In this document: in pieces, positions 13,598-37,091 of the stretch
Position numbering within the stretch: position 1 is the stretch's first letter
Layout: each line of letters starts with the position of its first letter
Origin: Craspedostauros australis
Taxonomy: Eukaryota; Bacillariophyta; Bacillariophyceae; Mastogloiales; Achnanthaceae
DNA length: 64,000 nucleotides
Reading direction: 5' to 3'
Assembly: GCA_026770025.1 (NCBI GenBank)
Contig: JAMXDE010000018.1
Location: forward strand, 992,001-1,056,000
Position numbers and translations under genes: made by a program
Notes under the pieces: model-generated
Told to the model about the DNA's origin: nothing
The model's input: only the letters and a program-made list of their open reading frames with translations
The model's database searches: none

Positions 13598-14345
13598 TGT
13601 TAGGAATTGAGGGTACAACTTTGTCGGAATACCCGTAATTGCCGCACCTCCCAACATTGTTCGTCACAGCTTTGAATATTATTCGTCACATGTTCGGAGA
13701 CTATTTGTCACACCTTTGTATACCATGTCATTATGACTATGACTAAGCATACGGACGCGATTGATACCTGTATAACCGCGAGGAGGGTAGCCTGTCCTCT
13801 GGTAACATAAGGAAGACACCCACGGTGGATCAGGAGGTCCCGATACCACGCCAACCATGGCAACCACCCAGACGACGACGTTGATCAGGACAGCATGTCC
13901 ATGGGCAAGTGACGCACCTTCTTCAGAGGACAGCACGCGCCCCTCCTGCGGACAAGAACATCCGCAGGTTTGGAAACATCAGAAAGGATCGGAACATCCG
14001 CAGGTTTGGAACATCACCAAAGGAGACATCGGCTATGAGACGATGGCGTCATGAAGATCAACGAAGGAAACATGAGACAGGCAAGTGCTCAAGGCTGCAG
14101 ATCCCTACCATGCAAACGTAGACAGCTACAGCAATGCAGAGACAAGGAAGCAAGAACAGAGCATGATGAATGAAGAGGGAAGCACCTAAGAGACAACAGG
14201 ATGCCCCGTGTCGTTACCGCGGCAGATGCCTGTCAAGAAAACGAAATCGGAAGAGAAAGTGAGATTGTGCTCACAGTTCTAAAATGGTACAGTTTCTAAC
14301 AGCAGATTAGAATTTAGTACTAACTATAACCCCAGATTTCCAACA
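13598..14345 (+). repeat. 5' LTR of element A
   Basis: 748 bp. Contains a 37-bp direct repeat carrying GGAACATCCGCAGGTTTGGA (about 13968-14012). It differs from the 3' LTR at six sites, each CG in one copy and TG or CA in the other. Confidence 0.95.
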
Positions 14346-14360
14346 CGTTTCGAAACGTTA
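14346..14360 (+). promoter_or_regulatory. Candidate primer-binding site of element A
   Basis: The 15 bases right after the 5' LTR, CGTTTCGAAACGTTA, match element B at the same position in 13 of 15. The location suggests a primer-binding site, but I could not match it to a tRNA 3' end, so an internal-tRNA primer or another role is possible. Confidence 0.4.
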
Positions 14361-14425
14361 CGATTGAAATCCTACGTTTCTACCACCATCAACACAGCAA
14401 CAAACATCCTCTCATCATCATCACC

Positions 14426-17400
14426 ATGACATCCTTCCTAGGTAAGACTGATCGTTACATGATCATGTTCGACGGCAAGCGGTCCAGCTGGAAAGCTTGG
14501 AGTGCGAAGTTCCTGGCCCGCGCCAACCGCAAGGGCTATGGAGACTTGTATCTCAAGGACATGGGTGATGTGGTTGTGAAGGAAGAACCGTTCGTCCCCT
14601 CTGTTGCTTCCCTCCCTGCGAAAGGCAAGAAGAAGGACGATGACGAAGCCAAGAAGCCAAGTGTCATGACTCCTAAAGAGGAGGCTGAGTACAAGAAGGC
14701 ATTGGCGAAGTACGCGTTTGAAGAACTGACCATGGCTATTAGCCATGAAACCACCAAAGGCAATGTTGCCTTCATGGCTGTGTTGGGATGCAAGAGCAGC
14801 GCTTACGAGGGAGGAGACCCACGTAAGGCATGGAAGGCTCTTGAGCGTATCTACGAGCAGCGCACTGCGCCTATGAAGGCAAAGTTGTTGGCGCAGCTCA
14901 ACGGGATGCGCATGAAGAAGGGAGAACACCCGGACACGTTCCTCACCGAGATGGAAGTGCTCCGTGGACGCCTCTCCCACGCCGGCGTCGACTTGGACAT
15001 GACCCAGTACCACATGCTCGTGCTTAACGCCCTCGCAAGGGACTACGAGATGGATGTGAAGCTCATCGAGCTCAAGTTCACCGGCATTGAAAGCACGATG
15101 TCAATCGAGGACATCCGTGAAGCAGTGAGTGCCACCTACGACGCACGTCACATCAAGCAAGGAAGCAACCGCCGCGAGAGCGACACCAAAGAGGAAATGG
15201 CTCTCGCTGCCACGGGCGGCTTCAAGGGGTACTGCCGCAACTGCGGTGCCTACGGGCACAAGAAGGCGGACTGCCGCTCTCCCCCAAAGAACAAAAACAA
15301 CAAGGCCTTGAAGAAGAACAACAAGAGAGGTGACACCCCCGCCAAGAACAAGTTCAACGGAAACTGCAAGTACTGCGGTAAGAAGGGGCACAAGATCCTC
15401 GACTGCTTCAAGTTGAAATCAGCGATGCGAGAAGCCGAGGCCGCAAACGTGGCGACCGATGGCATGGAGGAAGAAACAGATGTCGCCCTCGTGATGGTCG
15501 AAGAACACATGTGGCGGACTGCAGAGGACGATGTGGCAGGCTACGACTCCTTCGTTGAAGTTGACGAGGCGATGTGGTCGACCTCCAACGAGAAGGCCGA
15601 CGACGTTGGCCTAGCCATGATCGAGGAGCCCATCTGGTTGCCCGAAGACGACAAGTCCATGGATAGCACGGAAATGCTGTGCTTCCTCACTAACGAGTTC
15701 GAACTTGATTCGACTGAGGTCAAAAATGTGACCAACCCAAGACTCGTAACAACCCAAGAAATTGCGAACATCAAGGAAAACATGAGCAACGACCACGCCA
15801 TGATGCCTCCCGAAGAGGAGACCACCGAAGACCTCGCCCTCACGTCCACCGACGAAGAGATGGCCGACCAAGGCAACGAAGAACCAAACCAAGGCTCCGA
15901 GTGGACAGCTGAAGAGCGGGCGGCCCACCACCCAGGGGTGTATGGTCACTACGGACCACCAGCGGTCGCCGCCGAGCGCATCAACCGCGAACTCTTCCCG
16001 TCCGAAGACGAGTCCACCGATGACGACGGGTTCTTCGACGAGGTCATCTACGATGAAGACCTCGTCAGCACCGAAGAGGAGTCTACCAATGAAGTGGCGA
16101 TGGTGATCGGAGCGGAAGACATCTGCAGAGAACCTGTCTTCTCGCTCTCCACCAACAAGTCTCCCATCGAGAAGACGATCGAAGCGGCAGGGCGCGCAAT
16201 GTACCAGGGATGGGCATCATGCCCACTGTGCTTCAAACAAGGGTACATCTACTCGTACTGCGTCGATTGTCCAGCCCAGCCATTCCTCATCGATCTACCG
16301 GAAGGAACGGTCGTGGTGAAACCGACAACCCACGAAGAACGCGATGAACGCCGCGCAATGCTCGCAAAGGAGGAGTCCCTCGCACTCGCAGTGCGATACT
16401 CATTGAGCAACGCCATGCCGGCTGACAGTGTGCGCTCCGAGCTTGCCCTGCTGTGCCTCGACACAGTGGAGGAGTACAAGTCGAGAGACAGACGCACTTG
16501 CGCGGATGCTCGCACCCTCTACTTCCTCCTACGCGAGATCGGGATGATGACCCCGTTCAACGTCATGAAGAACATGCCGTTCATCAACGAAAGGCTGGAG
16601 AAGGAGCAGCTGCCAGCCATCCACCATGGACTCATCGGGAGCCTGGCCTCGCGTGGAGCACTTCAAGTCATGTGGAAGTACCACCCAGGCCACTACGGAG
16701 TCCGCAACCCAGGAGAGTTCCCTGAACTCCCCCTCCACAGCGAGAGAAACCCGCAACCAGACATGGCAATGGTGATCGGCGACATCGACGGCGTCGAAGA
16801 ACGCCGCATCACGCTCGCCCCAGACCGCCATGAGGCAAACACTTGGTTGGGCGACTCAGGTGCCTCGTGTCACCTGACCAACAACAACGAGGGCATGACC
16901 AACGTACGCGTGGCCGACCACTCCATCAAGATCGGCAGCGGTCGCTACATCAAGGCAACAAAGGTGGGCGACAAGCGCATGGTGGTAATGCAGAAGAACG
17001 GTACCACCGCAACCATCCTCCTCAAGCACGTGAAGTTCGTGCCCAATTTGTGGGTGAACCTTCTCAGCATCAACAAAGCGCTTGAGAGCGGCTTCAACAT
17101 CAGCAACCACGGCGTTGTGATGAGCCTGGAGAAGCGCGGACAACGTATTACGTTTGACCGGCTTATGGCTACCCACAGCGGGTTCGTGAGCGGTGTTAAC
17201 ATGATCACCGCCCCTCACCCTCACGATCAAGCCAATGTTGGCGTGTCCACCCAGACCGCGGTGGACATCAATCAAATCCATAAAATGTTAGGCCATGTTG
17301 ACACTTACACGATCTCTCGCACAGCGGGACGATACGGGTGGAATGTCACGGGCAAATTGCATGCATGTGTGGACTGTGCCATTGGCAAACAAAGGCAGAA

Positions 17401-18600
17401 GGCCATGAGGAAGAAACTCCAATCACGAGCGAAGGAGGTTGGTGATCGACTGTTCATTGACACATCGAGCGTCCAGACGTACAGCTACGGACAAGGAAAG
17501 TATTGGCTCCTAGTCCTCGATGATTACAGTGACTACTGCTGGAGCTATTTCCTGAAGGAGAAGAGTGAGGTTGGAACAAAAATGGTTCTGTTGCTTAAAT
17601 GGCTCCATGCCAATCAGCAAACACGAGTGAAAATTATCAGATGTGACAACGCAGGAGAAAATTATTCTGCGGAGAAGCAACTGCTCGTCGCAGGGTTCGG
17701 TCCAACGTTCGAGTACACTGCAGCATCGACGCCGCAACAGAACGGTCGCGTGGAAAGAAAATTCGCCACGTTGTACGGGAAAGTCCGAGCCATGCTCAAT
17801 CACACGCACCTGCCGAAAAATGTCCGAGGAAAATTATGGGCCGAGGCGGCCAGAACCGCTACCCAACTGGAGAATATCATCGGGACGAAAACGAGAGAAC
17901 CAGCATGCGTGCTGTTCAATAACCGGATCCCAACTTACGTGGATGGGTTGCGCGTTTTCGGGGAAATAGGCATGGTGTACATCGGAGGCCGCACGATGAA
18001 GGCGAAGCTGGATGACAGATCCAGACCAGCTATGTTCGTTGGATACGGCCAGTCACACGCGAAGGGAGTATATCGAATGCTGAACCTCGCAACAACTAAG
18101 ATCCTAATCACGAGAGACGCGACATGGATGAATCAGTCATATGGGCAATTCAGAGGTATCGAGAATGCCAACAGATCAATATCGATAGATCTGGAAGATG
18201 ACGACTCTACATCGGGTATGAAGACTCGACACACGAGAGCAGTTTGGGAGCGACGATCGGAGACCATCAAAGGCATGGAGACCGACGACGCAGATCGCAG
18301 CAGCAGAGCCGGAGAGAAAGAAGATACAGAAGACGCTGCGCGAGGGCAAGATGACTTGCTCCCCACCCAAGGGAAAAATGAGTCGAACGATAATGACGGC
18401 GACGAATTCGGAAGGGACGATGAGGGGAGAACAAATGAAGAGGCCAAATATGAGCCGGAGCAGACCCCTATCGCAGAACCTGTGCAACGCGTACCAAGGA
18501 TGGTGAGTGCTCTCGCAGGGTATAACAAAGAACCCATTCCAGAGGAAGAGCGAGACCTCGAATCGAGCGATGAGTCAGAACCAAATACAGACGAAGGGTA
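14426..18600 (+). CDS. Copia gag-pol of element A, first part (gag, protease, integrase)
   Basis: 1391 codons, open up to the insertion of element B. Gag is N-terminal with two CCHC zinc knuckles at about residues 269-282 (CRNCGAYGHKKADC) and 314-327 (CKYCGKKGHKILDC). A long acidic spacer follows. The aspartic protease shows WLGDSGASCH at about 807. The integrase has its HHCC zinc-finger region around 950-985 and the DDE residues in FIDTSS, CDNAGEN and the intact NGRVERK. The frame continues exactly into 34478: codon TA|C (Tyr) forms across the excised insertion. Beyond 18600 the open frame is LTR sequence of element B and is not part of the protein. Confidence 0.95.
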
Positions 18601-18697
18601 TGTTGGAAGGCTCCGCGCACGGAGAATCGGTAGAAGTCAACACTCTTTCTCAAAGTGTTTCTGTTACTGTTACTGTTGTTGCTATTGATTGTTGGTG

Positions 18698-19494
18698 TGT
18701 TGGCAAGTTCCGCTCACGGTAACCTACGATCGTGGAAGATGGTGTTGGTTGATAGTCGTTCGTTTGCTATTTCATTACTTGGCTATTCCGATGCTCTCGG
18801 TGTACGCCGTTCTCTCGCCCGATGCTCTCGGTGCTTCAATCTGTTTCGTAGATTCGGTCTCCGACTATGAGTCGGTACGCGAGATGCTCTCTCGCTCCTC
18901 TTCTGTATTCTCTCTCTCTCTCTCAACATCGTGTGCTCGTCGCGCACGATACTCCGTGTTCGATACGTACTCCGTATTCGACACTCCGTTCATTCAGTAC
19001 TGGCTCCTACTCCATGAGTACTCGCCATTTGAAGTTCACCTTCTGTATCCATGATGCTGATGTCCTTCGGTCATCGGATCTTCGCCTCCTGCTCTGACTT
19101 GGAGACAGATGTCGACGTGGTGACATGATGACATCCTGTCGACGTCAGTAGGCGTCCTTCTGCTCTCCAGATGTCATGTTCCATTGGTGATGCAGTGGTC
19201 TGTCAGATGATATCGTCATCTGAGGTTTAGTTGGGAAGTACCTCGAGATTCTCTTGGTACCATTGATGGATGGACGGACGATCTTCTGATTCTCCCAGAA
19301 ATCGTTATTTGCAAATTTCCTCCAGAAATCTTGCCCCTTTTCGTGTGTTCCATTTCCCCTGTAATTCTGACGAATCACAGTATACTATCGACACGAATGT
19401 AGTTATACCGTCCAAGTGCGTATGAGAGAATAACGGGTGAACGATGCACATATACACGTACATCTTGACATATACTCACATGTACATCTCGACA
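18698..19494. mobile_element. Solo LTR (D) inside the 3' LTR of element B
   Basis: 797 bp starting TGTTGGCAAG and ending CATCTCGACA, flanked by the 6-bp duplication TTGGTG (18692-18697 and 19495-19500). The LTR-like ends, the duplication and its absence from B's other LTR make an insertion more likely than a deletion in that LTR. No internal region remains. Its orientation is not determined. Confidence 0.8.
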
Positions 19495-19769
19495 TTGGTG
19501 AGCGAGCATGAGGAATGAGATGATCAAGATGCTCTCTTGATCCATCTCTTCCTTGCTCTCATTGCTTGGTGCAATCCTCTTGCACCTCCATGCACATTAC
19601 TCTCATGTTGCTCGTTGATGTTGACTTGATCGTCAACGTTGTCGTTTCTCTCTCGTTGTCTCGTCGTTGTTCCGTTCTCAGGTTTTGTTGAACCTGACGA
19701 TTGATCGAATCTGATGGAATATTCACAACATATTTCATTCCTGTAGACCTGGTAGTTAAGGTCTCGATG

Positions 19770-19876
19770 TGACGTCACGTGTGGTGGATACTGTGGTATC
19801 CGCTGGTATCGCGGTATCCTGCTGTCGTAGTATCGCGGTGTCCTCGTGGTATCGTGGTGGTATTCCTGTGACGTCA
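19770..19876. promoter_or_regulatory. Two CRE palindromes in the LTR of element B (3' copy)
   Basis: TGACGTCA occurs at 19770-19777, overlapping CACGTG at 19776-19781, and again at 19869-19876. Between them lie repeated GGTATC hexamers. TGACGT-type elements bind bZIP factors, and in diatoms such motifs have been linked to CO2/cAMP-responsive promoters. A regulatory role in this LTR is inferred. Confidence 0.55.
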
Positions 19877-19969
19877 TAGTTTTGAGTCGTGATTCCGCCA
19901 CCAAATATTCTGGATGATGGCGCGCAAGTGTGACTGATGCATACACATCCGAGTACACACATTCCGACA

Positions 19970-19977
19970 CCCTTCCT
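19970..19977 (-). other. Polypurine tract of element B
   Basis: AGGAAGGG on the minus strand directly precedes the 3' LTR. Confidence 0.65.
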
Positions 19978-19988
19978 GTAGGCGTCAG

Positions 19989-22900
19989 TCATTCACTGCT
20001 GTCGCCAGTGTGTAGGTAGGACTTCTCGTGCTCGCGCTGTAGCTCCGACTTGATGTTCTTCGTGAAGCCGTCGCTTCGATTGTTCTCTGACTTGACGAAG
20101 ATGATTTCGATCAGCTTGTCATTCACCATGTTGCGGACGTAGTGATGGCGTACGTCGATATGGCGGGAGCGTTGCGATGTTGAGGGATTCTTCGCGATGA
20201 AGATCGCTCCAACATTGTCAACTCTCACAGTGATTGGAGTCTTCACTGGCACTCCCACACTCTCCAGGAGTTGCATCACAAAGAAGATCTCCTTTGCCGC
20301 TTCCGATAGCGCGATGTACTCTGCCTCTGATGAACTGAGTGTCACTGCCTTCTGCGCCTTGGATTGCCAGAGGATAGGGACTTGACAGAGGTAGAGGATG
20401 AATCCGCCGACACTGATGCGAGTGTCCTTGTCTCCGGCGTATTCGCTGTCGCAGAACATCTCCATGTTCCATGTGCTGCTGTCTGTCATGACGGGATGGA
20501 TCTTCAGACCGTAGTGCTTCGTGTCGATGACGTATTTGATGATACGCCGCATCTCCTTGGTTGCAGCCTTGGTCGGTCCATCGAGTACCTTCGTCAGCTC
20601 TCTGACAGGGTTGGCGATGTCGGGACGCGAATGCTTGATCAGGAATAGAAGCATTCCCACTCCCTTGCGGTAGTCAGCATGCTCTGCTGCGTCCACCTTC
20701 TGCAATCCGTTCTCTTCGGATGGGCGAACGATGCTCTGGCTTGGCGTCCCTGGCGTCGCGTAGCGCTGCATCTTCTCTACCTCTGCACCAAACTCGGTGA
20801 TCAGGTTTCGGATCAGATGTGGCTGGCGTAGGACAGCTCTCGTCTTGTCTGCGTTGAGCTGGATGTTGCAGCTGAGGTAGTCACCCAAACCCTTCTCGAT
20901 GGTGACCTTGAACTTGCTCTTCTGGATGTCGATCATGAATTGGTCGAGTGCCTTCTGATGTCCGCAGCAGAAGCAGTCGTCAACGTAGATCGCCACGATG
21001 ACTGTTTCGTTCTTCGTCTTGCGATGGAAGAGACACGGATCCGCCGCGCTCTGGTCGAATCGCATTCCCTTCAGCGTTGACACCAGCATCTTGAACCATT
21101 GGCGTGCGCTCTGGACCAGCCCGTAGATTGGCTTGTGTAGCAGCAGCGCCTCATCAGGTGTGCTGTCCATTCCGCTTGGACAATTCATGTACACCTCTTC
21201 TTCGAGGTCGCCGTACAAGAATGCCGTGACCACGTCCACGAGTGCACAATCCATCTTCTGTAGCATCATGATCACCATCATCACACAGTACGTGACGTCG
21301 TGGATGACAGGCGAGTGGTGCTCTTGGTAGTCCACTCCTGCAATCTGTGAGTAGCCACACGCCACCAGACGCGCTTGATAGGTTCCATTGCGCTTTAATT
21401 TAAACACCCATTTGCACTTGCAGCATCTGCGGTCCCTTGGAATCGATGAGCGCTTGATCTTGCTGTAGACGGATCGAGCATCCATCGAACCGAACTCCTT
21501 TGCGATGGCAGCTCTGTAGCCCTTCTGGTGTGTTGCATTCGGATGGTTGAATGCTTGGTCGAAGGTTGATGGCTCGATGTGCGTCGATGTCTCTCCTGTC
21601 TCATCTTCGGTGGTTGCGCAGATCTCTATCTCGAAGTCGTCGGTGCTGATTGCGTTGTTACCGAATAGAGCATCTGTGACTGCGTTGGTGATGTCCGATG
21701 GAGGAGAATCGCTGTCTTCGTCGTCTGTAGCTTCGTTGTTCTCCTCATTCTCGTCGGTGGTGTCGCCATTGTTTTCGTCATCGTCGTTGGTCTCCTCGCT
21801 GTTGTCCTGATCGTGGTCTGTGTTGCTCTTGTCGTCATCGGTGTCGCTTCCCCTATTGAAGACGGATAGGTTGGTAGTGAACCGCTTGTCTTCATGCTTC
21901 TCTTTCTTTCCTGGCTTGTTGTAGTTTGCAAGGTTGCGCAATTCGCTCTTTCCTTTCACGTTGGATGGCAGCGATGCACGCGACTTCGCATTCGTTTTTG
22001 CTTGATGCTTGCTTCGCTCGATGTATCGCTGTTGTCGTTCGCTGCGAGCGGTGTCGCGCTTGCTTGGTCGTCTTGGGGGATCAGCAGTCGTGGTGCGACT
22101 AACTTTCGGGTCATCGTTCGCTTCGTGCGAACGCTTGCGTGACGTTGGCGGAGTGCGGAGGATGCTTGGCGGGACACTCGGTGGGGCGACATCTTCAATG
22201 TCGGTCACTGTGTCGTCGTCGACAGGAATCGCGTCAATCTCTTCTTCGGACGCAGTCCCTTCGTCCACTGGTGTGGTCGCCGTCTCGCTCGCGAGACCTG
22301 GTGAGTTCTTCTTCGCACTCGTGTTGTTGTTGGTGTCGTCATCGTCCTCGTCGTCGTCATCTGAGAGGACGTGGTAAGAATTCGCGTCAGCGAATGACAC
22401 AGAGCGTCGCTTCGGCTTGGCTCGAGCAATGTGGGACGGCGCTGTCCCTTCCCTTCCGACCAGGATGAATCCATCATCATCAGTCTCCGTTGGGTGCTCG
22501 GCGTCGGTTGCGACGATCTGACTCCCTTCCGGCTTCCCATCGTCCGAGCCGTAGGTCCAACCCTTGAAGTGCCCGTACGATCTGTTGAGCCACTTCACGT
22601 CTCTGGTGCAGACGATGGACTTGGTGGATGGGCGGTACATGTTGTAGACGCCAGATCCATGCTGCGGAGCATATCCGACGAACAACATCGCCTCGCCTCT
22701 GTTCTGGAGTTTCGCCATCATGCCTCCATAGGCCGTCTTGACGACTCCGACTTCACCAAAGGTGCGAAGTCCGCTTGCGTACTTCGGATCCTCTCCGAAG
22801 AATAGATGGTGTGGTGACTTGGTCTTTCCCTTCGCCACGGTGATGTTGGCGACCGCGGTCGCGACGTTGGCTGCCGCAGCCCATAGACCATGTCTGTGCT

Positions 22901-25900
22901 CCTCGTTGAGCTGGGCGCCATTCAGCATGGATCGCATCTTCATGTACAAGTATGCGAACTTGCGCTTGACTCTGCCGTTCTGTTGTGGTGTGTTGGATGC
23001 CGTGTATTCGAATGAGATGTCGAATCCGGCTTTGAGCAGGTGGGCCTCCGATGCCTTGTTCTCTCCGCTGTTGTCTCCGCGAAAGATGATTGGTTTGCCG
23101 TCGGTGTGCGGCCGCATCTTCTGGATGAATCGCTTCAGGAAGGCCGGTTGGTCACTCTTGTTGGTGAGGAAGATGCTCCAGCAGTAATCTGTGTGGTCGT
23201 CTACGATCAACACCCAGTACCGCTTGTTTCCGAAGCTCGTGTGCTTTGTGTAGCTGATGTCGATGAAGAATCGCTCACATCGTCGCGATGCTCTCGCGAT
23301 GGTCGCCTTCGGGACGTTCTTCACTCGTGCGTTGGCGATGGCACAGTGCTTGCATGGTGGCATGGTGCCGATGATGTTCCATCCGTGATGCGATGCGGTC
23401 CGTTGCATTGCTTCGAGTGGGGCATGTCCCAACATGCGGTGGAGTGTGGACGCGTTGATGCCCTTCGGTGGATCCGATGTGACGGTCGCAGCCGTGATGT
23501 CTGTGCGTGGCTTGACTGCATGCATCTGCACGCCAGTCACGAAGCCATTTCGCGTGCGGAACACTTGATCGAACACGATCTTGTTCCCGTTGCCGTTCGC
23601 GATGTCCATGATGATACCGTTGTTGCCGATCTGGTATCCATTTTCCAGCGCCTTGTTCGTTGAGAACAGATTCACCCACATCTTGGGTGCGAACTTGACG
23701 TCGTTCAGTCTGATGGTGCGCTGTGTGTTGTCGCGTTGCTTCACTCGGAGATAGATGGACCCCATCTTTGGTGAGTTGAGTTGCGTGTTGTCGCCGACCT
23801 TCACAAAGGACTGGATGTGGCGGATGTTGAACATCCCCTTATCCGAATTTACAATGTGGCATGAGGCTCCACTGTCGGCGAGCCATGTGTGTTCATCGGG
23901 TGTGTCGGTGTGGTGGTCGGATGCGCGGAAGCGCGTGCGATCCACGACCATGATTGCCAACTCGTCGTCGTCGGAGGACTCGTCGTCGTCGGATGAGTCG
24001 CTCGTGCTGCAATCGCCCCAATCGATTGGAGGGCGCATTGGTGCTGCTTGCTGTGGCGGCTCCGGTCTTGCCTGTTGCGGTGGCTCAGGTCGCCTTTCCT
24101 GCAGTCGGTGGTGAAGCAGTGCCGCCATACATCCTCCAAGGATGAAGTGCCGCTCCATGATGCTCAGTGGTGGTTGGCCGTGACGCTCGAGGATTCTGTT
24201 GAGAATCATGCTGTTTGCCAGGATCTCCTCGATTGACAGAAGCTCTGCCATGATGAACATTGCCGACACTCGTCCGACGAATGCCATCTGGATGCGTCGA
24301 TTGTTGGGAAACAGGTTGTGGGCCCCGCAGAAGATGGCGTTGCTGATGATTTCGCGTTGCCTGATCTCGGCCGTGAATGTTGGGTACGGCGTAGTGTCAT
24401 GCCTGCCGTGTGCCCCTCGTTGGTTGAAGAAGTCTGTGGGCCCAAAGCGTAGGCCGGTTGGGAAGATCACGTCTTCGTGGTGGTTCATGACTCGTTGACC
24501 TTCTGGCCTGGGAGGACGGAATCTGTTCCGGACGTATAGCGGACGAGTTGCATCGCTGTCGTCATCTCCATCATCTTGAGCGATCTCTTCTTCGGCGGAG
24601 CCAGCGGCTGACGTCTCTTCGAAGAGATTGTCGTCCAGGAGCATGTCTTGCTCAATCGGGGGCTCCCCGGCTTCCTCCATAGCGAGGATATCGATATCCT
24701 CCTCGGGGTCTTCTTCTCGGTTGCCGTTGCTCGGCAAGTCGTGCGTGTTGAGGCAGTAATCGAAATCGAGATCAAAACGAGGCTCGTTGTTGAGCGTCAC
24801 CTCGTGGATGATCGGTCCGTCGTTGAGCCATGCTGGGATGCTCACGTCGTCGTGGACTTCGTCCGTTCCTGGGAAGTGTTGGAAGGTATCAAAGAATGAA
24901 TCATCGACGGCGTAGGCAGTGTGAGTTTGTGTGGGTGTGTCGAGCATGGTCATCACCATCTCGAATCTGTCGTCGTTGCCGTCTTGCGCCGTGCTTCCTT
25001 GCTCTTCCTGCTTTCTCTTTTCGTTGAACTTTTTCTTTCTGCAGTCGGCTTCTCGGTGTCCTGGGATGCCACAGTAATGGCACTTCCCACTGAAGCCGCT
25101 GCCACGACCTCTTCCTCTGTTGCCGCGGTTGCCTTGATTGCCGCGCTGATCTCCTCTTCTGTTGCCTCTGTTGTTGTAGCCTCCTCGTCGGCCGTTGTTG
25201 GATTGATGGTTGTTGTTGTTGTCGGCCACTTGCTTCCTGTCTGGACAATTCGCAGACCGATGGCCGTACTTTCCGCAGTTGTGGCAGTTGCCTTTGAATC
25301 CGCCTGTCGCAGCCATCGCCGCGTCGTCGCGCTTGCTGCCCGTGTCTGCGAAGTCGTCCACGTACGCCTTTCCACCTTGGAGTTTGGCGTATCTGTAGTT
25401 CAGGACGTTTCGGATGGCTTCGATCGTCACCTTCTCTGGACCCATCTGCAGTTGGTACTCGAAGTTGCTCACTTCGTCGTCGTAGTCCTTGCTGAGGCTG
25501 CTGAGTACTTGCATGATCAGCTCTCTCTCGCTGATCTCGTATTTCACATCTTGGAGGCGAGTGCGGAGCAGCTCAAGCCGTGTGACGTAGATGTCGGGAT
25601 CCGTATCCCTCGCCATGCGTTCCGTGTTGAATTGGCGCTTCAGCCGCAGCACCGTGGATGCGTCGGTCGGCTGGTATTTCTCCTTCAGCATCTTCCATGC
25701 TGCCGCTGGGTTCCCCTCGGGGTTCTGCTCGTCGCAGCATTGGTTGATCAGCTGGATCGCCTGCTTTCCAGTTCCTTGCTCTGCATCCATCATCAGGATC
25801 AGATCGCTGAAGCAGTCCAGCGCCAGTTCGCGTGTCTCTTCGAGGGCCTCCCTCTTCTCTTCATCACTCTCTCTCTCGATGTCTTCTTTCGTCGGGATGG

Positions 25901-26682: not shown

Positions 26683-26697
26683 TAACGTTTATAAACG
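26683..26697 (-). promoter_or_regulatory. Candidate primer-binding site of element B
   Basis: Minus-strand CGTTTATAAACGTTA immediately after the 5' LTR, 13 of 15 bases equal to the same position in element A. Confidence 0.4.
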
Positions 26698-26854
26698 TGT
26701 TGGAAGGCTCCGCGCACGGAGAATCGGTAGAAGTCAACACTCTTTCTCAAAGTGTTTCTGTTACTGTTACTGTTGTTGCTATTGATTGTTGGTGAGCGAG
26801 CATGAGGAATGAGATGATCAAGATGCTCTCTTGATCCATCTCTTCCTTGCTCTC

Positions 26855-27486: not shown

Positions 27487-27496
27487 CTCCCCAAAG
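27487..27496 (-). other. Polypurine tract of element C
   Basis: Minus-strand CTTTGGGGAG abuts the 3' LTR. Confidence 0.6.
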
Positions 27497-27510
27497 CGTG
27501 TCCCGGACAT

Positions 27511-30500
27511 TCAGGTCTTGTAGGTCGGGGAAAAGGACTCAGTGTGCCCTTTCCAGAAGAGGATGGGCTTCACGAGGGGCCAGAAGACAGCCCACGGGAG
27601 GAACTTCGTCATCACGTCGGCGACGTTCTGCGTGCCAGGGATCTTGATGAAGTAGAGGATGCCAGCGGCGACAGCGGACCGGACGCGATGGTAGGCCAGT
27701 GCGTTGTGGCGCTTGGAGAGCATGCTCTTGGGGACCGTGGAGGAGGTGATGACGGACTGGTTGTCACCCAGCATCCAGCTGGGGCCGTCGATTGGAATGC
27801 CCATCTCGCGGAGAGCGAGACGAAGGGAGATGATCTGCTCCGTAGCTTGACGGGCAGCGACGAACTCGGACCCGTAGGTGGCGGTCTCAACCGTGCCTTG
27901 ACGCTTGGAGAACCATTCGATGGGGGTCTGGTTTACCAGATGGAGAACACCGGTAGCGGATCTGCCAGTGACTTGGCAGTGGAGAAGGTTGGCGTCGACG
28001 AACGTGGTGGTTCGGACGGGCTTGCCTTTCGGCTCGGGGATGTCATCCGGAATCTCCTCGGAGGTCTTCCCGTAGACGGAGTAGATCCAGTCATGGTTAG
28101 GAACCTCATAGTGAAGATCGAAGCGGGGAACGCAGGTGCGGAAGCGGATGGCAGCATCAGGGTGCTTGCGAAGGTATCCGTACACGCGCTTGGCGCGGTC
28201 CAGATGACCTTGGCAGGGCGCTGAGCGGAAGCGTGCTAGCGTCATGACGGCGACAGAGATGTCAAACCGTCCGAGGGAGATACACCACTGGAGTGCACCG
28301 ATGAGCGACATGAACTTGCGCTTGTCGGTTTCGCTGAGTTCGGAAGAGGTGTCAAGCTCGGGACTGTCGGCCTTGTCGAGGGGGCAGCTGATCTTGCGGG
28401 GAAGCTCGCCGAACATGCGCTCGTAGTTCTCCATCATCCGCTTGATGTAGGATTGCGGGGAGAGCTTGAGAGTGCCGTCGGGATCACGGCCGAAGTCAGC
28501 ACCGAGATGGTACTTGATAGGACCAACTCCCTTGAGCTGGTACCCGTACTTCGAAGAGAGGATGTCGAAGAAGGCCTTGGGGTCGGCCATCGTCGCGGTG
28601 AGGTCATCAACGTAGACGCAGACGTACTCCCAATGGGAGTTGGCGTCACGCATCCAGACGTCGGGATCGGAGCGGCATTGGAGGAAACCCATGTCGCGAA
28701 GGGTGTCGGCGAGAGCCTCATGGAATCGGGCGCCCGATGTGCGCAGGCCGTAGAGTGCCTTGACTATCTGCATGGTATGACCAGCGAAGTCACCGAATTC
28801 GTCACCAGCGATGAAGCAGATGCGTTCTTGAGTGAAGGCCTCAAGATACGCATTGCCAATGTCTCCAACCCATGTTGGAATGCCGTTGAGTTCGCCGGCG
28901 AGGAGGGAGAGGCGGAGAGAGCGAAGACTGACCACACCTGCGTAGGATGCATCCTTGCAGGGGTCGGTGAGATGACCACCAGCGACGCAGCGCGCCTTGT
29001 GGCGGAGGTCATGCTTCACAGCATAGACCCATTGGAGGCGGATCTTCTGGAAGCCGGAGGGAACAGGGGCGCCTTTGCCGAGAGACTTGAAGGTGTGGTA
29101 CCCGAAGAGTTGGTCCATCTCCTTCTTCTCGGCATCGGCCCAGAGAGTGTTGCCGTTCTTGTCGTCGAGTCGCAGCGCTTCCTTGTGGTTGCGAGGGACT
29201 TGGACACCGAACTGGAAGGTGGGAGCGTGGTTGAAGGTCTTGGACTTGTTGACCTGGCGCTCGAGACGATTGGTGCGGATGGCGAGGCGCTTGAGGCGCT
29301 TCCAGCCAGGCTCGTCGAGCAGCTCGTGGCGGCGGCCGTAGGCAGCGCAGGAGACAGGATCATCCTGAATCATGATGGAGAGGGGTTCGGTGGAGGTGGA
29401 GCCGTCTCCCCATTTCACGATGACGTTGAAGCTCGATCCCTTGTAGGAGGGAGAGGAAGATGAGAGGGGACCCTCGTGTCCGATGATGGAGTCGAACTCC
29501 CACTTGGCGTCGGGGTCGTCGTTGTGCTCCTGTTGCCGTTCGATGATGTCGGCGAGCTCAACGTAGGAGATGAGGTCATGCGTCTCCCCATCAGCCAGTG
29601 CGAGTAGCATCTTGATGCGTTGGTGGTTGGCTGCATCAAGGTCATTGACCTTTTGCACCACCTCCGCTCTGACTTGCTGGCCATCCTTCTCGTGGATGAA
29701 GGTCATCCCAACGAGATCCTCAGGAGAGAACTTCGGGATGTGGACCTTGGCATTCCCCACTGTTTCAGGGTCTGTGCCGCGGCGGTCAGCCAGGATGGAA
29801 TCGGCGAGGGAGTGTACGATGGGATCGGAGTCAGGAGGGACGGAGATGTCGTCGTCTGGCTCCCCATTCGCCACATTCATGGCATCAGAGCCATCGTCCT
29901 CCCCAACAATGGGGAAGGGGAAGTCCGCACGAAGATTGCGGGTGGCAGAGTCGTCGGCAGGCCGGATGGCAGACCGAGGAAGAAGTCGTTGGGTCTCGTC
30001 GTCGAGGACCCAGAAGGTAAGATCATCGCCTTTGTGAAGGCAGGGACCGGCCCAGCGTCCACTGCGCTCCTTGGACTGGCTGGGGAAGGTGGGGTTGTCA
30101 ACCCGGTAGTAGACAGGTTGCCACCAGCGGTAGGACAGGAACTTGGAGATGTCCGGTCGCTGTCCGAAGGCGGCTTGAAGAGGGGTGATGGAGCCAGCGG
30201 TGGCCTGCGCGATGTGATTGAAGAGATCGATCACATAGAGCGTGCAGATCAGCCAGAAGCGATCGGGGGTACCCGTGCGATCCATCACACCGTTGGTTGT
30301 GCGTTTGATATCCTGGATCCGGCGTTCCGCGCCGTTCTGATGCTGGTGTTCCGGCTCACTCTGGTGGTCCTTGATGTGGTATTGTCGTAGGATCTCCATG
30401 ACCTTGTTACCGATCTGCGCCTTGGCGTTATCAGACATCAGTAGATCAGGAGCCCCATGGCGACGGATGAAATCACGGAGAGTGTCGGAGATGCGGCTCT

Positions 30501-33105
30501 CGGATGGCATGGGAAAGCCGGCCGTGAACCGAGAGTCGAGGGCGACGTACACCTGAAGCATGGTGCAGCCGCCATGGCCGGGAACCCCGTCGTCGTGAGC
30601 AGGGGTATCGGAGAAGAGCGTATCCATCGCAACCGTCTCATGGAGACGGTCGACGTTGGCCGCTGGGAACCGAGACTTGAAATGCTTGCGCATGGAGAAG
30701 CGCTCGGCGGTACGGTACCATTGAGAGGTACACCGAAGAGTGTCGCGAATGCGACGAGCTGGAATCCAGCCGAAGTGGGGCCGGAGAGCCTCGTAGTCGG
30801 CAGGCTTGCGAGTGGCAATGATGCTGCCCGGGTTGTCAGCGATGTCGGCTTGGCGAGCACCAGTGTAGGCCGTGAGAACGGTAGAGTTATTCTCGCGGCG
30901 CTGGAGTGCTGCGGCGTCATCATCGTCGACGTCGTCGAGGTTCATCTCCTGGTCGAGGGAAGAAGGGTCCCATTCGTCGTCCGCTGTGAAGTCGACATGT
31001 GGATACTTGTCGAGTTCGGAGCGGGTAGGCTTGGCCATGTCCATGTAGGACAGGCCTTGCCGGACAGCCAGTGGGATGATGTGGCCTCCTGGTGTGATGA
31101 TGGTCTGGCGACCTCCAGGGAGATTCCGTGGGCGTTCGTTGACATCCATTCCGAAGGCACCAAGCTGGTTGGATGAATGGATGGTCTTGCCCTTGCCGTA
31201 GAGCGCGTATTGGTGGAATTTACCAATGATGGGCCCTTCGGTGGTCTGGATGAGACCAGCAACCGTACCGATGTCGAGGTTGGCGATGGCAGAGTCACCA
31301 ATGCCACTGACGTCGGCGGTGTGTCCTGTCTTGCAGAGAACGAGGACGTCATCGCCAGCCAGGCCCCCATTGGCACCGCTGTCGACGAGAGAGCCAGAGT
31401 GGTCCTTGACAAGCTTGTTGAAGCTGTACCGGACCACCGTGGAGTTGGCAAGGCGCCAGGTCTGGCCCTTGTAGACCAGTTGAGGAGTATCGTCAGACGA
31501 AGAGGTGGACTTGGTCTGCGCGAGAAGGCGATCGATGGCAGTGGACTGGTCACCAGCCTTGGAAGAGTCCGTGTTACCAGCGGATGGAGTTGCGGAAGGA
31601 GTGTCGGTGGTGCCCGAAGATGTGGCAGCGTTGTTGGCAGCTCGGTGGGAGTCAGCCTTGCCCTTGCCCTTGTTCTTGCGCCACTTTCCCTTTGCTTCGA
31701 GGAATGCCTTGCGTTGGTCCTTGGACATCTCACGCCATTCATCATTGGGGATGGAACGGCGGTCGTCCTTGGCGTAGTCCTTGCCATTGCCTTTGCCAGC
31801 AGAGCCGCTGGTCTTGGCGTTGTTGACCTTGCGCCGAGATGTGGTACGAGGCTGGTTGGCGTCGAGGGATTGTGCCTCATCTCGAACGAACTCGAGGAGG
31901 TCTTCGAAGGAGACACCAACCTTGATGAAGCCGCGAGATTGCTTGTGACGTTGACGGGAGTTGGACTTCACGTTGGTGTAGGCCCGAGTCAAGTCGACAT
32001 CGGGACCGATGGCGGTACGCAACCATTGCTGCTTGACCGCCTCATCGACACATGCATCATCGAGCTCTTCGATGTCATCGAGCTTGGTTTCCCAGGCATC
32101 GAGGAATTGCTCGCGGGTCTTGGTCCAAGATTGGTCCAATCGGAAAGCGACGATGGTATCTCTGTACTTGATGGACAGAGTCTCGCCGACGACGCCACTG
32201 GTGTAGCTATCGACGAGATCGGCATAGGCCGCACGGCCATCGCAAGACTTCTTGTAGGCACGGATGATGCGCCGACTCTTGGAAGTCTTGACATGCTCAG
32301 TGAGCACGGCGAAGAGGTAGCGATTCTGGCTCGCAAAGAAGGCCTCGTCCTTGGGTGCTGGCATGAAGTCCATATCAAGATGGTGGTTGAGTCCATGGGA
32401 GAAGGAAAGAGTCTCGAAGGTCCGCATGAAGGTGAGGAAGTGCTTGTCGTCCTTCAATGTTGGAAGTGACAGGCTCTCCCGCTTGGTCGCCTTGCTGAAC
32501 TCCTTGACGTAGTCCGCTGGAAGCTCCATGGCTTGGACACCTTGGAAGTTGGAAGCGGGTGCCATGGATGGAGTCACAGGCGGTTGCGTGAAGGCAGGAT
32601 CAGGCACCGAAGCCGAAGGATCGAATCCGAAGTTCACATGCGGAGGTTCTTCGGCCACAGGACGGAATGCGGATGCTGGAGTGGTGTGGTTGCCCATGCC
32701 CATGCCCATGCCAATTGGAGATGGCACAGGTGTGCTTGCAGTCGAATGCGAGCGCGAAGAAGGAAGAGAAGGGTTGCTCTGCTCAGCCGTGAACGCCATG
32801 AAGGTAGCGCGATCAAGCTCGTTCCAGGTATCGTCATCCAGAATGGACTGGGTGAGGTACCACTTGCCGAGGTTCAGGATCTTGCGGATGTGGTTGATGC
32901 CGAGGGATGCGGTGAAAGGCTCGCCATCATCGGTGTTGCCACTGAGATGGAAGCTGCGAAGGTCATCCTCAGTGAGAGAGACGAGGTCGAGAGGGCTGAT
33001 GATGTCCTCATGAGCGATGATATCGCGAGGAGTTGAGTCAGAAGGGATGCCAATGACACCGAGGATGTGATCCAAGGTGGCGAGGTCCGTCTCAGCAGTC
33101 GTCAT
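27511..33105 (-). CDS. Copia gag-pol polyprotein of element C
   Basis: 1864 residues, no stop or frameshift, ending 24 bp before the 3' LTR. The gag region has no CCHC zinc knuckle; a basic Lys/Gly-rich stretch (KGKWRKNKGKGKAD, near 480) sits where one would be expected. Protease VDSGANGG lies near 573. The integrase has Asp in AMDTLF and MSDNAK and an intact Glu in HQNGAERR. RT shows IGNAYLEA and YVDDL near 1497. RNase H shows FVDANLLHC and TYGSEFVAARQA. It is clearly a different copia lineage from A and B. The ATG is 320 bp inside the 5' LTR. Confidence 0.95.
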   Translation of the reverse strand: MTTAETDLATLDHILGVIGIPSDSTPRDIIAHEDIISPLDLVSLTEDDLRSFHLSGNTDDGEPFTASLGINHIRKILNLGKWYLTQSILDDDTWNELDRATFMAFTAEQSNPSLPSSRSHSTASTPVPSPIGMGMGMGNHTTPASAFRPVAEEPPHVNFGFDPSASVPDPAFTQPPVTPSMAPASNFQGVQAMELPADYVKEFSKATKRESLSLPTLKDDKHFLTFMRTFETLSFSHGLNHHLDMDFMPAPKDEAFFASQNRYLFAVLTEHVKTSKSRRIIRAYKKSCDGRAAYADLVDSYTSGVVGETLSIKYRDTIVAFRLDQSWTKTREQFLDAWETKLDDIEELDDACVDEAVKQQWLRTAIGPDVDLTRAYTNVKSNSRQRHKQSRGFIKVGVSFEDLLEFVRDEAQSLDANQPRTTSRRKVNNAKTSGSAGKGNGKDYAKDDRRSIPNDEWREMSKDQRKAFLEAKGKWRKNKGKGKADSHRAANNAATSSGTTDTPSATPSAGNTDSSKAGDQSTAIDRLLAQTKSTSSSDDTPQLVYKGQTWRLANSTVVRYSFNKLVKDHSGSLVDSGANGGLAGDDVLVLCKTGHTADVSGIGDSAIANLDIGTVAGLIQTTEGPIIGKFHQYALYGKGKTIHSSNQLGAFGMDVNERPRNLPGGRQTIITPGGHIIPLAVRQGLSYMDMAKPTRSELDKYPHVDFTADDEWDPSSLDQEMNLDDVDDDDAAALQRRENNSTVLTAYTGARQADIADNPGSIIATRKPADYEALRPHFGWIPARRIRDTLRCTSQWYRTAERFSMRKHFKSRFPAANVDRLHETVAMDTLFSDTPAHDDGVPGHGGCTMLQVYVALDSRFTAGFPMPSESRISDTLRDFIRRHGAPDLLMSDNAKAQIGNKVMEILRQYHIKDHQSEPEHQHQNGAERRIQDIKRTTNGVMDRTGTPDRFWLICTLYVIDLFNHIAQATAGSITPLQAAFGQRPDISKFLSYRWWQPVYYRVDNPTFPSQSKERSGRWAGPCLHKGDDLTFWVLDDETQRLLPRSAIRPADDSATRNLRADFPFPIVGEDDGSDAMNVANGEPDDDISVPPDSDPIVHSLADSILADRRGTDPETVGNAKVHIPKFSPEDLVGMTFIHEKDGQQVRAEVVQKVNDLDAANHQRIKMLLALADGETHDLISYVELADIIERQQEHNDDPDAKWEFDSIIGHEGPLSSSSPSYKGSSFNVIVKWGDGSTSTEPLSIMIQDDPVSCAAYGRRHELLDEPGWKRLKRLAIRTNRLERQVNKSKTFNHAPTFQFGVQVPRNHKEALRLDDKNGNTLWADAEKKEMDQLFGYHTFKSLGKGAPVPSGFQKIRLQWVYAVKHDLRHKARCVAGGHLTDPCKDASYAGVVSLRSLRLSLLAGELNGIPTWVGDIGNAYLEAFTQERICFIAGDEFGDFAGHTMQIVKALYGLRTSGARFHEALADTLRDMGFLQCRSDPDVWMRDANSHWEYVCVYVDDLTATMADPKAFFDILSSKYGYQLKGVGPIKYHLGADFGRDPDGTLKLSPQSYIKRMMENYERMFGELPRKISCPLDKADSPELDTSSELSETDKRKFMSLIGALQWCISLGRFDISVAVMTLARFRSAPCQGHLDRAKRVYGYLRKHPDAAIRFRTCVPRFDLHYEVPNHDWIYSVYGKTSEEIPDDIPEPKGKPVRTTTFVDANLLHCQVTGRSATGVLHLVNQTPIEWFSKRQGTVETATYGSEFVAARQATEQIISLRLALREMGIPIDGPSWMLGDNQSVITSSTVPKSMLSKRHNALAYHRVRSAVAAGILYFIKIPGTQNVADVMTKFLPWAVFWPLVKPILFWKGHTESFSPTYKT

Positions 33106-33425
33106 GATGAGCGATGGATGGATGGAGAGAGCGGATGCGGATGCTGGAGGCTGAAGGATAGCTGAGGCTGGGGTGCACTGACTGAATCGTCTTCTGGTGC
33201 GGGAGGGTGCTGCAGGAAGTCTTGGATGGCTGAGTGGGAAGGCCCGAACTCAGCAGAGGAACCGAAAGGAGGGCGTTCTGCGAATGCGAGAAGGCCGAAG
33301 GAAAGCCGAAATCACGTCGTCACGTGATGGAAGGTGAAGGGATCGCTCGTGGATGAACGAGGGATGAAGGATGGATGGATTGTCACGCAATCAATTCAGT
33401 AGGTGAAAGCTTGCGACTGTTAATC
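33106..33425 (-). other. 5' leader of element C
   Basis: 320 bp between the 5' LTR and the gag ATG. No ORF of note. The bases next to the LTR (minus-strand GATTAACAGTCGC) do not resemble the A/B motif or a standard TGG-type primer-binding site. Confidence 0.6.
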
Positions 33426-34057
33426 TGTTAGAACGTAATCGTAGATGGGTGTGAAGGATACCGCACCGAGAACGTAGAGTGATCAAGTCGTTGTTGTTGG
33501 TGAGGAGAGTGTTTGTTTACTGTATTATTCGTATGGTAGTAGGAATGCTGTCGAGCTCACAAGATGGTTTCTTGAGAACTGTGAGCATGAGAGAGGCATG
33601 ACATGATCTCATGCAATTGCAAGTAAAATTAACACGGAGACAACACGACAAATGTGCGTGTTACTGCGTGAAGATGAGGTGCAAAGAGTCAATGAACAAA
33701 ACACCGCGATAGCCCGTGTTGTGAATTGCGTCTTCTCACGATGTTGCTAGTAGTACGATCACACGATTGATCGTATTCACTTGAGAAGGTCATGGCAAGA
33801 TTCGCACGTGTCACACCCAAGATCCAAGTCTGTCCTGATTGGGCAGATTGGTCCATCTTGGCAAGAAATCAATTTCCGCGACATTTTGGAACTGTGTTTG
33901 AAGGGAAAACGATTCTTGCGACGCGAAATGCGACACAAATTTGACACAACGGATTTTCGACCAAAATTTCCGTTCGGAACGGAAAAGGTAAGAAAAGTGG
34001 ATATTTCTGATTGGTCGACGGGTGTCGCTATTGTTAGAGATTTAGCGTGCGCTAATA
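33426..34057 (-). repeat. 5' LTR of element C
   Basis: 632 bp; upstream end of the element on the minus strand. Confidence 0.95.
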
Positions 34058-34271
34058 CTCTCATTGCTTGGTGCAATCCTCTTGCACCTCCATGCACATT
34101 ACTCTCATGTTGCTCGTTGATGTTGACTTGATCGTCAACGTTGTCGTTTCTCTCTCGTTGTCTCGTCGTTGTTCCGTTCTCAGGTTTTGTTGAACCTGAC
34201 GATTGATCGAATCTGATGGAATATTCACAACATATTTCATTCCTGTAGACCTGGTAGTTAAGGTCTCGATG

Positions 34272-34378
34272 TGACGTCACGTGTGGTGGATACTGTGGTA
34301 TCCGCTGGTATCGCGGTATCCTGCTGTCGTAGTATCGCGGTGTCCTCGTGGTATCGTGGTGGTATTCCTGTGACGTCA
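34272..34378. promoter_or_regulatory. Two CRE palindromes in the LTR of element B (5' copy)
   Basis: TGACGTCA at 34272-34279 and 34371-34378, with the same GGTATC array between them as in the 3' copy. Confidence 0.55.
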
Positions 34379-34477
34379 TAGTTTTGAGTCGTGATTCCGC
34401 CACCAAATATTCTGGATGATGGCGCGCAAGTGTGACTGATGCATACACATCCGAGTACACACATTCCGACAAGGGTA

Positions 34478-36269
34478 CGAGACACCCCAAGAGACTATCG
34501 CATCCCCATCGGACACAGGAGGACCCGACTTCCACGCGGACGGGTCAACATTCAACAGAGATATCGCAGGCATGATGATAGATACACCTCACGGAATGAT
34601 GAGACTCGACGACATCATCACTGCGGACCAAGCATTGAACAATGAACAGAACGAGGATGGGATGGAACTAGCGAGCATCGCTATGCTGCTGGACCCAACC
34701 ACATTCGAGGACTGCTGGGACCACGCAGACCCCAGTAAGAGAAAGAAATGGCGAGAAGCCATCAACAAGGAATTCTACGATATGGCCAGAAGGAAAGTAT
34801 GGGAAAAGATCAAGAAGGACCGGATGCCGAGGAATCGGCGGTGCGTAAAGACCAAATGGGTCTTCAAGGAAAAGAGAAATGGGGTATTCCGCGCCAGACT
34901 CGTGGCATGCGGATACTCGCAGATCGCAGGAGTCGACTTCTCAGCGCACCACGCACCGGTGATACATGATGCAACCTACCGTATCATGCTCACCATGAAG
35001 ATGATACTGAAGCTAGACAGCATCATCATTGACTTTGAGACAGCATTCTTGCATGGAGACCTCGACGAAGAGATCTACATGCAATGCCCGAAAGGCATGA
35101 AACACGAAACCGATGAATGCTTGCTGCTCAAGAAAACCATCTACGGACTCGTGCAGAGTGCCAGACAATGGAACAAGAAGCTCGTCGACATCCTATTCAA
35201 ATTGGGGTTCAGACAGAGTGAGGTAGACCCATGCCTACTGATTTGGAATCAGGAAGGGCAACTGCTTTTAATCGGCACCTATGTGGACGATTGTCTCTGC
35301 ATCGGAGAAAAGCAGGAACTGCAGAAGCTCGTGAAGGATATCCGAGCGGAACGGTTCGGGGTCAAAGTGGAGGAAGATCTTGAAGACTACCTAAGCTGCA
35401 AGATCATCTTCAACCACAACAAGACGAACTGTTGGGTCAACCAGCCACACATCCTCAAGAACATCATCGATACGTTTGGGAGCGATGTGCTGAAGCTACA
35501 ACGATACGGAACACCAGGGACACCAGGGCAGGGCATCCAAAGGAACAGCGATGCACCCAAAGTGGACGAACAGCAACACAGCCGATACCGAAGCGGAGTA
35601 GGCATGCTGCTATACCTGGTGAAACACTCTCGACCCGACATCGCCAATGCAGTGCGAGAACTGACCAAAGTATTGGACGGACCAACAGCCTCAGCATATA
35701 AGGAGATGCTACGAGTCATGAAGTTCGTGTGGGACACGAGAGAGTATGGACTGAAGATGAAACCGAGTCCACTGACTAACGATGCATGGAAGATTGCAAT
35801 ATTCACCGACAGCGAATTCGCGGGCGACAAGGACAATCGCATCAGCGTAGGAGGGCACATCGTCCTACTACAAGGAGTGCCGATCATATGGAGATCAAAG
35901 GCACAACGCAGCGTAACGCTCAGCTCGACAGAAGCAGAGTACGTCGCACTGTCAGAAGCAGGGAAAGAAATCCGCTTCGTGACGCAACTGATGAGCGACA
36001 TCGGATTAAAGATGCACAAGCCCGCGGACGTCATGGTCGACAACGTCGGAGCGATCTTCATCGCCTCAAACCCATCGACATCCGCAAGAACAAGGCACAT
36101 CGACATCCGACATCACTTCATACGTGAACTCGTCAAAAATGGAGAAGCCGTAACCAAATTCGTGCGATCGGAAGATAACATCGCAGACGGCTTCACAAAG
36201 AACACCAAAAAGGAGATCTATGACAACCACAAGAATCACTTCATCCAACTGCGGTCTGCAATGGATTAA
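34478..36269 (+). CDS. Copia gag-pol of element A, second part (reverse transcriptase, RNase H)
   Basis: Continuation of the frame ending at 18600, 31 codons before the first ATG at 34572. The reverse transcriptase has WVFKEKRNG, the ARLVACGYSQ block, FETAFLHGD and the catalytic YVDDC. RNase H follows with TDSEFAGD, SSTEAEYVALSEA and DNVGAIF, ending near DGFTKN. The whole reconstructed length is about 1988 residues with no internal stop or frameshift, so B interrupted an element that could still code. Confidence 0.95.
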
Positions 36270-36333
36270 TGGGAGTAAGGCGAAAGGTGAGAGAGAAGGA
36301 CGATGATGATGGATGTTATGTTGTCGATGCGAC

Positions 36334-36343
36334 AATGGAAGGG
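36334..36343 (+). other. Polypurine tract of element A
   Basis: The purine-rich AATGGAAGGG directly abuts the 3' LTR, the expected position for plus-strand priming. Confidence 0.65.
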
Positions 36344-37091
36344 TGTTAGGAATTGAGGGTACGACTTTGTCGGAATACCCGTAATTGCCGCACCTCCCAA
36401 CATTGTTCGTCACAGCTTTGAATATTATTCGTCACATGTTCGGAGACTATTTGTCACACCTTTGTATACCATGTCATTATGACTATGACTAAGCATACGG
36501 ACGTGATTGATACCTGTATAACCGCGAGGAGGGTAGCCTGTCCTCTGGTAACATAAGGAAGACACCCACGGTGGATCAGGAGGTCCCGATACCACGCCAA
36601 CCATGGCAACCACCCAGACGACGACGTCGATCAGGACAGCATGTCCATGGGCAAGTGACGCACCTTCTTCAGAGGACAGCACGCGCCCCTCCTGTGGACA
36701 AGAACATCCGCAGGTTTGGAAACATCAGAAAGGATCGGAACATCCGCAGGTTTGGAACATCACCAAAGGAGACATCGGCTATGAGACGATGGCGTCATGA
36801 AGATCAACGAAGGAAACATGAGACAGGCAAGTGCTCAAGGCTGCAGATCCCTACCATGCAAACGTAGACAGCTACAGCAATGCAGAGACAAGGAAGCAAG
36901 AACAGAGCATGATGAATGAAGAGGGAAGCACCTAAGAGACAACAGGATGCCCCGTGTCGTTACCGCGGCAGATGCCTGTCAAGAAAACGAAATCGGAAGA
37001 GAAAGTGAGATTGTGCTCACAGTTCTAAAACGGTACAGTTTCTAACAGCAGATTAGAATTTAGTACTAACTATAACCCCGGATTTCCAACA
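36344..37091 (+). repeat. 3' LTR of element A
   Basis: Second 748-bp copy; see the 5' LTR for structure and differences. It is followed by GATGGC, the second copy of the target duplication. Confidence 0.95.

Follow-up and report, generated by a model that had tools for sequence, protein, structure and literature searches.

CpG transitions between the long terminal repeats of a copia-type element with nested insertions in the diatom Craspedostauros australis are consistent with past cytosine methylation

The paired long terminal repeats (LTRs) of a retrotransposon are natural clocks that start out identical, and the differences between them reflect the spectrum of mutations at a single chromosomal location. 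In the 64,000-nucleotide stretch of the diatom Craspedostauros australis analyzed here (the window; GenBank contig JAMXDE010000018.1, positions 992,001 to 1,056,000, located in contig C16 of a genome assembly of 74.8 Mb in 90 contigs), a predicted Ty1/copia retrotransposon, element A, raises the question of which process changed its two LTRs. A sequence-only reading had listed six mismatches between them, all CpG-to-TpG/CpA transitions with both copies changed, and had attributed them to deamination of methylated cytosines. Base-by-base comparison of the 748-bp LTRs upheld the count and the pattern, with exactly six mismatches, no indels, no non-CpG differences, and CG in one LTR against TG or CA in the other at all six sites (Table 1). 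Five of the six positions listed earlier were right, and the mismatch placed at 13757 lies at 13758. Under random substitution, the chance that 6/6 changes are CpG transitions is 1e-8 to 1.2e-7 (9.4% of the LTR bases in CpG; transition:transversion ratio from 1:1 to 3:1).

The direction of the changes was read from an alignment of 57 A-type LTRs. The CG dinucleotide was present at the six sites in 54, 53, 52, 53, 53, and 54 of the 55 other LTRs, the remainder carrying TG or CA, and the single base of the CG state occurred in 54, 55, 53, 55, 55, and 55 of them. The TG and CA states of element A are thus derived, because nearly all other LTRs of the family carry CG. Four derived states are located in the 5' LTR (13617, 13882, 14285, and 14334) and two in the 3' LTR (36504 and 36695). 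Viewed on the plus strand, the changes comprise four C-to-T and two G-to-A transitions, which shows that both DNA strands were affected. The same alignment bears on gene conversion or template switching, by which variant LTR sequence would have been carried into one LTR of element A. The variant base does occur elsewhere at two of the six sites, in 1 and 2 of the 55 copies, but it is found in 0/55 copies at the other four, and conversion should have brought non-CpG differences as well, of which there are none. This route is highly improbable and nearly excluded.

Element A was placed among its relatives by a survey of three families, in which 42 LTR pairs were compared (20 A-type, 9 B-type, and 13 C-type). 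The pairs were chosen by eye from the best 40 scored candidates per query and hence represent young copies near the queries. The 33 pairs with matching target-site duplications (TSDs; 15 A-, 8 B-, and 10 C-type), which include A but not the B and C pairs of the window itself (no differences), provided 22,038 aligned sites, of which 2,480 were CpG in at least one copy. They contained 51 substitutions, namely 25 CpG transitions, 15 other transitions, and 11 transversions. Transitions affected 1.01% of the CpG sites but 0.077% of the other sites, a 13.1-fold difference that remained 10.0-fold when A was left out. About half of the differences therefore fell at CpG sites, which make up 11% of the sequence. 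Element A was the pair with the most CpG changes. Its purity was not a family-wide rule, as only 19/45 substitutions in the other 32 pairs were CpG transitions, and extension of the six-out-of-six pattern to the family was thereby ruled out. Against this share, 6/6 in element A has a probability of 0.0057 (Fisher 0.0098), both values being unadjusted for the selection of A as a pure case. The two probability tests indicate that ordinary mutation would hardly give the pattern of A by chance, but that among the LTRs of this genome the pattern is only moderately extreme. Element A appears to join a genuine wider CpG bias to either luck or local extra methylation.

The nine pairs without matching TSDs (L088/L089, L007/L004, L011/L010, L035/L021, L041/L003, L103/L102, L058/L059, L065/L064, and L095/L094) were excluded. 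They were less CpG-rich, with 28 CpG transitions, 67 other transitions, and 28 transversions (28/123 CpG), and several of them probably join LTRs from different insertions. Two of these pairs deserve mention in their own right. The A-type pair L010/L011 (G000 C3:1785580-1793200) is identical over 748 bp although its flanks do not match, pointing to rearrangement or exchange between copies. The LTRs of L003/L041 (G000 C19) stand in element-like order without a TSD and are 57 substitutions and 6 indels apart; this locus is probably a recombinant of two copies.

Deamination of 5-methylcytosine at CpG sites is the best explanation of the LTR differences in element A, and we regard it as probable. 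Element A would have inserted with two identical LTRs and then resided in chromosomal DNA with methylated CpG sites. This methylation would probably be the work of a maintenance enzyme of the DNMT5 type, to which a DNMT3-like partner may have contributed. Since 5-methylcytosine deaminates to thymine, CpG would become TG, or CA via the other strand, at about 10 times the rate of change at other bases. Six such events may have accumulated over both LTRs and both strands while, by chance, nothing else changed.

The timing of the changes is consistent with this sequence of events. Changes present in one LTR only were counted as post-insertion, and changes private to one element but common to both its LTRs as older; the same filter, that all other copies agree, was applied to both classes. 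C:G-to-T:A changes comprised 13 at CpG and 5 elsewhere after insertion, versus 11 and 26 in the older class. Adjusted for site numbers, the ratio of the CpG rate to that of other C/G bases was 11.4 after insertion and 1.9 before it (Fisher 0.004). Under a slightly different filter, 10/77 changes in the older class were CpG transitions. All 14 private CpG changes (14/14) ran from CG to TG or CA, and the 11 private non-CpG transitions were balanced (5 G:C>A:T and 6 A:T>G:C).

The assembly itself could have produced such a pattern if the six differences were long-read consensus errors at methylated CpG rather than mutations, in which case methylation would still be implied but decay would not. 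Systematic miscalls at modified CpG are known. The small number of contigs resembles that of long-read assemblies, and changes confined to one LTR match the expectation for sporadic errors. However, errors should not follow age, whereas CpG differences grew with non-CpG differences across the pairs. With A excluded, 13 CpG differences were found in the 12 pairs with non-CpG differences versus 6 in the 20 pairs without (p 0.008), and the two counts were correlated (Spearman 0.45, p 0.0098). Furthermore, the ten C-family pairs held only 2 CpG differences against 18 in the 15 A-family pairs. Consensus error is accordingly considered quite unlikely.

A second process known from some fungi, premeiotic mutation of repeats resembling repeat-induced point mutation (RIP), would also turn CpG into TG or CA. 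In its favor, each of the six changes replaces C:G by T:A at CpG, and the diatom DNMT4 enzymes are described as related to fungal RID (PMC9998398). RIP is marked by dense, directional C-to-T change along the entire repeat. No such pattern was found in element A, where the changes are sparse, lie on both strands, and have little touched the interior: just 6/78 CpG alignment sites of the LTRs were altered, and the interior ends showed 3 CpG changes among 338 unanimous CpG bases. The base 5' of the mutated C in all 25 CpG changes was T in 10, A in 7, C in 5, and G in 3 cases, a non-significant T excess (p 0.19), and numerous near-identical copies remain in the genome. A RIP-like origin is very unlikely.

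The genome contained candidate enzymes for CpG methylation. The DNA_methylase profile gave seven matches at five loci. One of them, L053, consists of a Tudor frame and a DNA_methylase frame and is adjoined by L116 (6.5 kb), with SNF2 and Helicase_C frames. The DNA_methylase score of L053 (22.4) was barely above the Pfam cut-off of 22; in L116, SNF2-rel_dom was above its cut-off (2e-15) and Helicase_C below it (1.6e-4; 22.3 bits against 23.5). The two L053 frames matched PDB 7r76 with E values of 3.5e-27 and 2.2e-13, and this was the sole PDB sequence matched at the 0.001 threshold. The PDB names the entry "DNA repair protein Rad8"; we take it to be the Dnmt5 of Cryptococcus. From their adjacency and strand, L053 and L116 would form one gene, and the genome is thus predicted to encode a Tudor-DNMT5-like-SNF2 locus that combines a C5-methyltransferase domain related to Cryptococcus Dnmt5 with a C-terminal SNF2-type helicase. 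Among the other loci, L050 is a DNMT3/DRM-like frame, L047 resembles the bacterial M.HhaI, and L048 and L049 match DNA_methylase and are presumably DNMT2-like, as judged by motifs only. No RING finger was found in the two scanned frames of L116; this is not decisive, because DNMT5 is described as "complemented or not" with RING (PMC9998398).

Several observations weigh against deamination of methylated CpG, and some of them would favor the view that something other than methylation makes CpG mutable in this genome, the purity of element A being luck. CpG depletion, which the sequence-only reading had proposed as a check, was not found: the observed/expected (o/e) ratio was 1.00 in the window, 0.80 and 0.84 in the LTRs of A, 1.01 and 0.99 in its interior pieces, and 0.87, 1.08, and 1.31 in LTR families A, B, and C, sampled as young copies near the queries. 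This result does not refute methylation: within LTR pairs, differences affect just about 1% of the CpG sites, and at that level depletion is not yet to be expected. Nor did purity extend to the interior of element A, where 3/8 private changes at its ends were CpG (2/6 in an earlier count); these include some changes older than the insertion, and the 3/8 count omits the divergent outlier copies L035, L017, and L028. Third codon positions of 20 silicon-transporter (SIT) genes showed a 3.15-fold CpG excess over other C/G bases, so the CpG bias is partly not specific to transposable elements (TEs), or genes are methylated too. Seven close SIT pairs, which differ at 14-41 of about 1,600 bases, served as a control, although their positions are under codon selection and form an imperfect yardstick; their CpG ratio per site was 2.8. 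In raw counts unadjusted for site numbers, the CpG:other transitions of the LTR pairs without A (19:15) did not differ significantly from those of the SIT pairs (56:75; odds 1.7, p 0.18). The contrast between post-insertion and older changes fell to 9:5 versus 11:26 without A (p 0.051); the numbers behind it are small, and it owes much to A. Finally, the profile match of L050 crosses five stops, so this DNMT3/DRM-like gene is spliced or broken.

Non-methylation causes nevertheless sit poorly with the 11.4-fold and 1.9-fold CpG excesses of post-insertion and older changes, which were measured in the same sequences. Post-insertion private changes also differed from those of the SIT genes (14:5 versus 21:34, Fisher 0.015), but not significantly so without A (p 0.077). 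Intrinsic mutability of CpG is considered unlikely. Deamination of methylated cytosines, as first proposed for element A, is therefore retained in part: CpG-biased decay after insertion in A and related pairs and a DNMT5-like host enzyme agree with it, whereas purity in the family and in A's own interior, as well as CpG depletion, failed to appear, and methylation itself is deduced from these data. Private CpG changes were commoner in LTRs (32/1,281) than in interiors (37/4,361), and other C/G changes were likewise 2.1-fold commoner in LTRs; since coding constraint explains much of this gap, no LTR-specific methylation is claimed.

As a separate observation, SIT genes were unusually many in this genome (G000). 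There were 88 matches, of which 32 covered at least 480 of 513 profile positions and 28 of these had no in-frame stop (L054, L055, L117-L136, and others), compared with a copy number of 3-5 given for most species (PMC10700740). The presence of this gene family agrees with a diatom host.

The closest known system is Phaeodactylum tricornutum with its CoDi elements and DNMT5a. It too is a diatom that carries LTR elements of the copia type and has genes for a DNMT5-SNF2 and a DNMT3-like enzyme (PMC9998398). In that study, TEs lost their CG methylation when DNMT5a was missing, methylation was directed at 75 of 85 long LTR-copia elements, and the targets were young elements (PMC9998398). Methylation was measured there, whereas it is deduced from substitutions here, and the word "deamination" is absent from the main text of the paper (PMC9998398). 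In addition, the Tudor domain found here fits the description of DNMT5b, whereas P. tricornutum is reported to have DNMT5a without DNMT5b (PMC9998398). Deamination of methylated CpG was likewise proposed for TEs of the rust Austropuccinia psidii, where classic signs of RIP were absent; unlike the young elements studied here, with CpG o/e near 1, the old TEs of the rust are CpG-depleted and AT-rich (PMC8063080). The first estimate of a diatom mutation rate similarly noted that cytosine methylation may add C-to-T mutations, but methylation is treated there only as a possible cause of base-composition bias, and "CpG" and "transposable" are absent from its text (PMC6604790). No report of CpG decay in the LTR pairs of a diatom appeared among the results of searches in an open-licence library. 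The mechanism has been described in fungi and is to be expected in diatoms; element A would be a new instance of it.

The CpG bias affects the dating of insertions. Over the 33 pairs, total divergence was 0.231% (51/22,038) and non-CpG divergence 0.133% (26/19,558), so that counting CpG sites inflates LTR ages about 1.7-fold on average. The earlier expectation that an ordinary divergence clock would overstate age was thus supported as an average over these pairs. Element A had a total divergence of 0.80% and a non-CpG divergence of 0/670 sites, with an upper 95% bound near 0.45% (rule of three). CpG sites are best omitted when insertions of such elements are dated, and for species that lack a methylome, counts from LTR pairs could allow past methylation to be estimated from sequence alone. 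Because CpG decay was strong after insertion and weak along the lineages that produce new copies, one possible, though tentative, reading is that methylation spares the source copies of active copia elements in diatoms but reaches most insertions, and that it is heavier on single copies such as A, with its stack of nested insertions, than on their sisters; LTR pairs would then represent a fossil methylome.

Element A is assigned to the Ty1/copia order because a frame with copia-type gag (Retrotran_gag_2), Pol_BBD, and SH3_retrovirus (14330-18595) is followed downstream by RVT_2 (34440-36266). SH3_retrovirus is taken by us to mark the integrase end, which places the integrase region before the reverse transcriptase. 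The LTR termini (TGTTAG...CCAACA, thus TG...CA) and the short flanking TSD of 6 bp also agree with this assignment. As read from the sequence, A holds three nested LTR insertions, and the TSDs of A, B, C, and D are all intact. By the nesting, A inserted first and B second, and C and D followed. In agreement with this order, no difference separates the two LTRs of B (566 bp, with the two nested inserts skipped) or those of C (632 bp).

Table 1. Coordinates of element A, its nested insertions, and the six LTR mismatches (window positions; bases given as 5'/3' LTR).
Feature	Position	Strand	Description
Element A 5' LTR	13598..14345	+	748 bp
Element A 3' LTR	36344..37091	+	748 bp
Target-site duplication GATGGC, left copy	13592..13597	+	
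Target-site duplication GATGGC, right copy	37092..37097	+	
Element A interior, left piece	14346..18600	+	copia gag (Retrotran_gag_2), Pol_BBD, SH3_retrovirus; single open frame 14330-18688
Element A interior, right piece	34472..36343	+	RVT_2 in open frame 34440-36269
Element B, copia type, nested in A	18601..34471	-	TSD AGGGTA at 18595-18600 and 34472-34477
D, read as solo LTR, inside left LTR of B	18698..19494	.	797 bp; TSD TTGGTG
Element C, RVT_2 frame, inside right LTR of B	26855..34057	-	LTRs 26855-27486 and 33426-34057; TSD CTCTC
Mismatch 1	13617/36363		A/G
Mismatch 2	13758/36504		C/T
Mismatch 3	13882/36628		T/C
Mismatch 4	13949/36695		C/T
Mismatch 5	14285/37031		T/C
Mismatch 6	14334/37080		A/G

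The window harbored further repeats and genes. The family of the solo LTR D is very abundant, with 1,228 first-look candidates; among the best 40, which were scored, nearly all had 96-100% identity. Two other LTR searches of the assembly gave 610 and 234 first-look candidates. A 332-bp repeat (96%) flanks the TE stack at 7832-8162 and 42643-42974. It was rejected as an LTR pair of A. The copy on the right begins where a frame for a Cys/Met-metabolism enzyme has its edge, and 4/11 substitutions of the repeat were CpG transitions. Inverted repeats were identified within 8150-10773 (8680-8788 / 8951-9059 at 94% and 8150-8660 / 10252-10773 at 75%), adjoined by a stretch at 9840-9917 that resembles the end of an A LTR. 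An Rfam search of the window gave no match. Farther downstream, a frame at 57297-61232 combined PT repeats with a match to carbonic anhydrase, and another at 62481-63437 had ankyrin repeats and a 102-bp tandem array.

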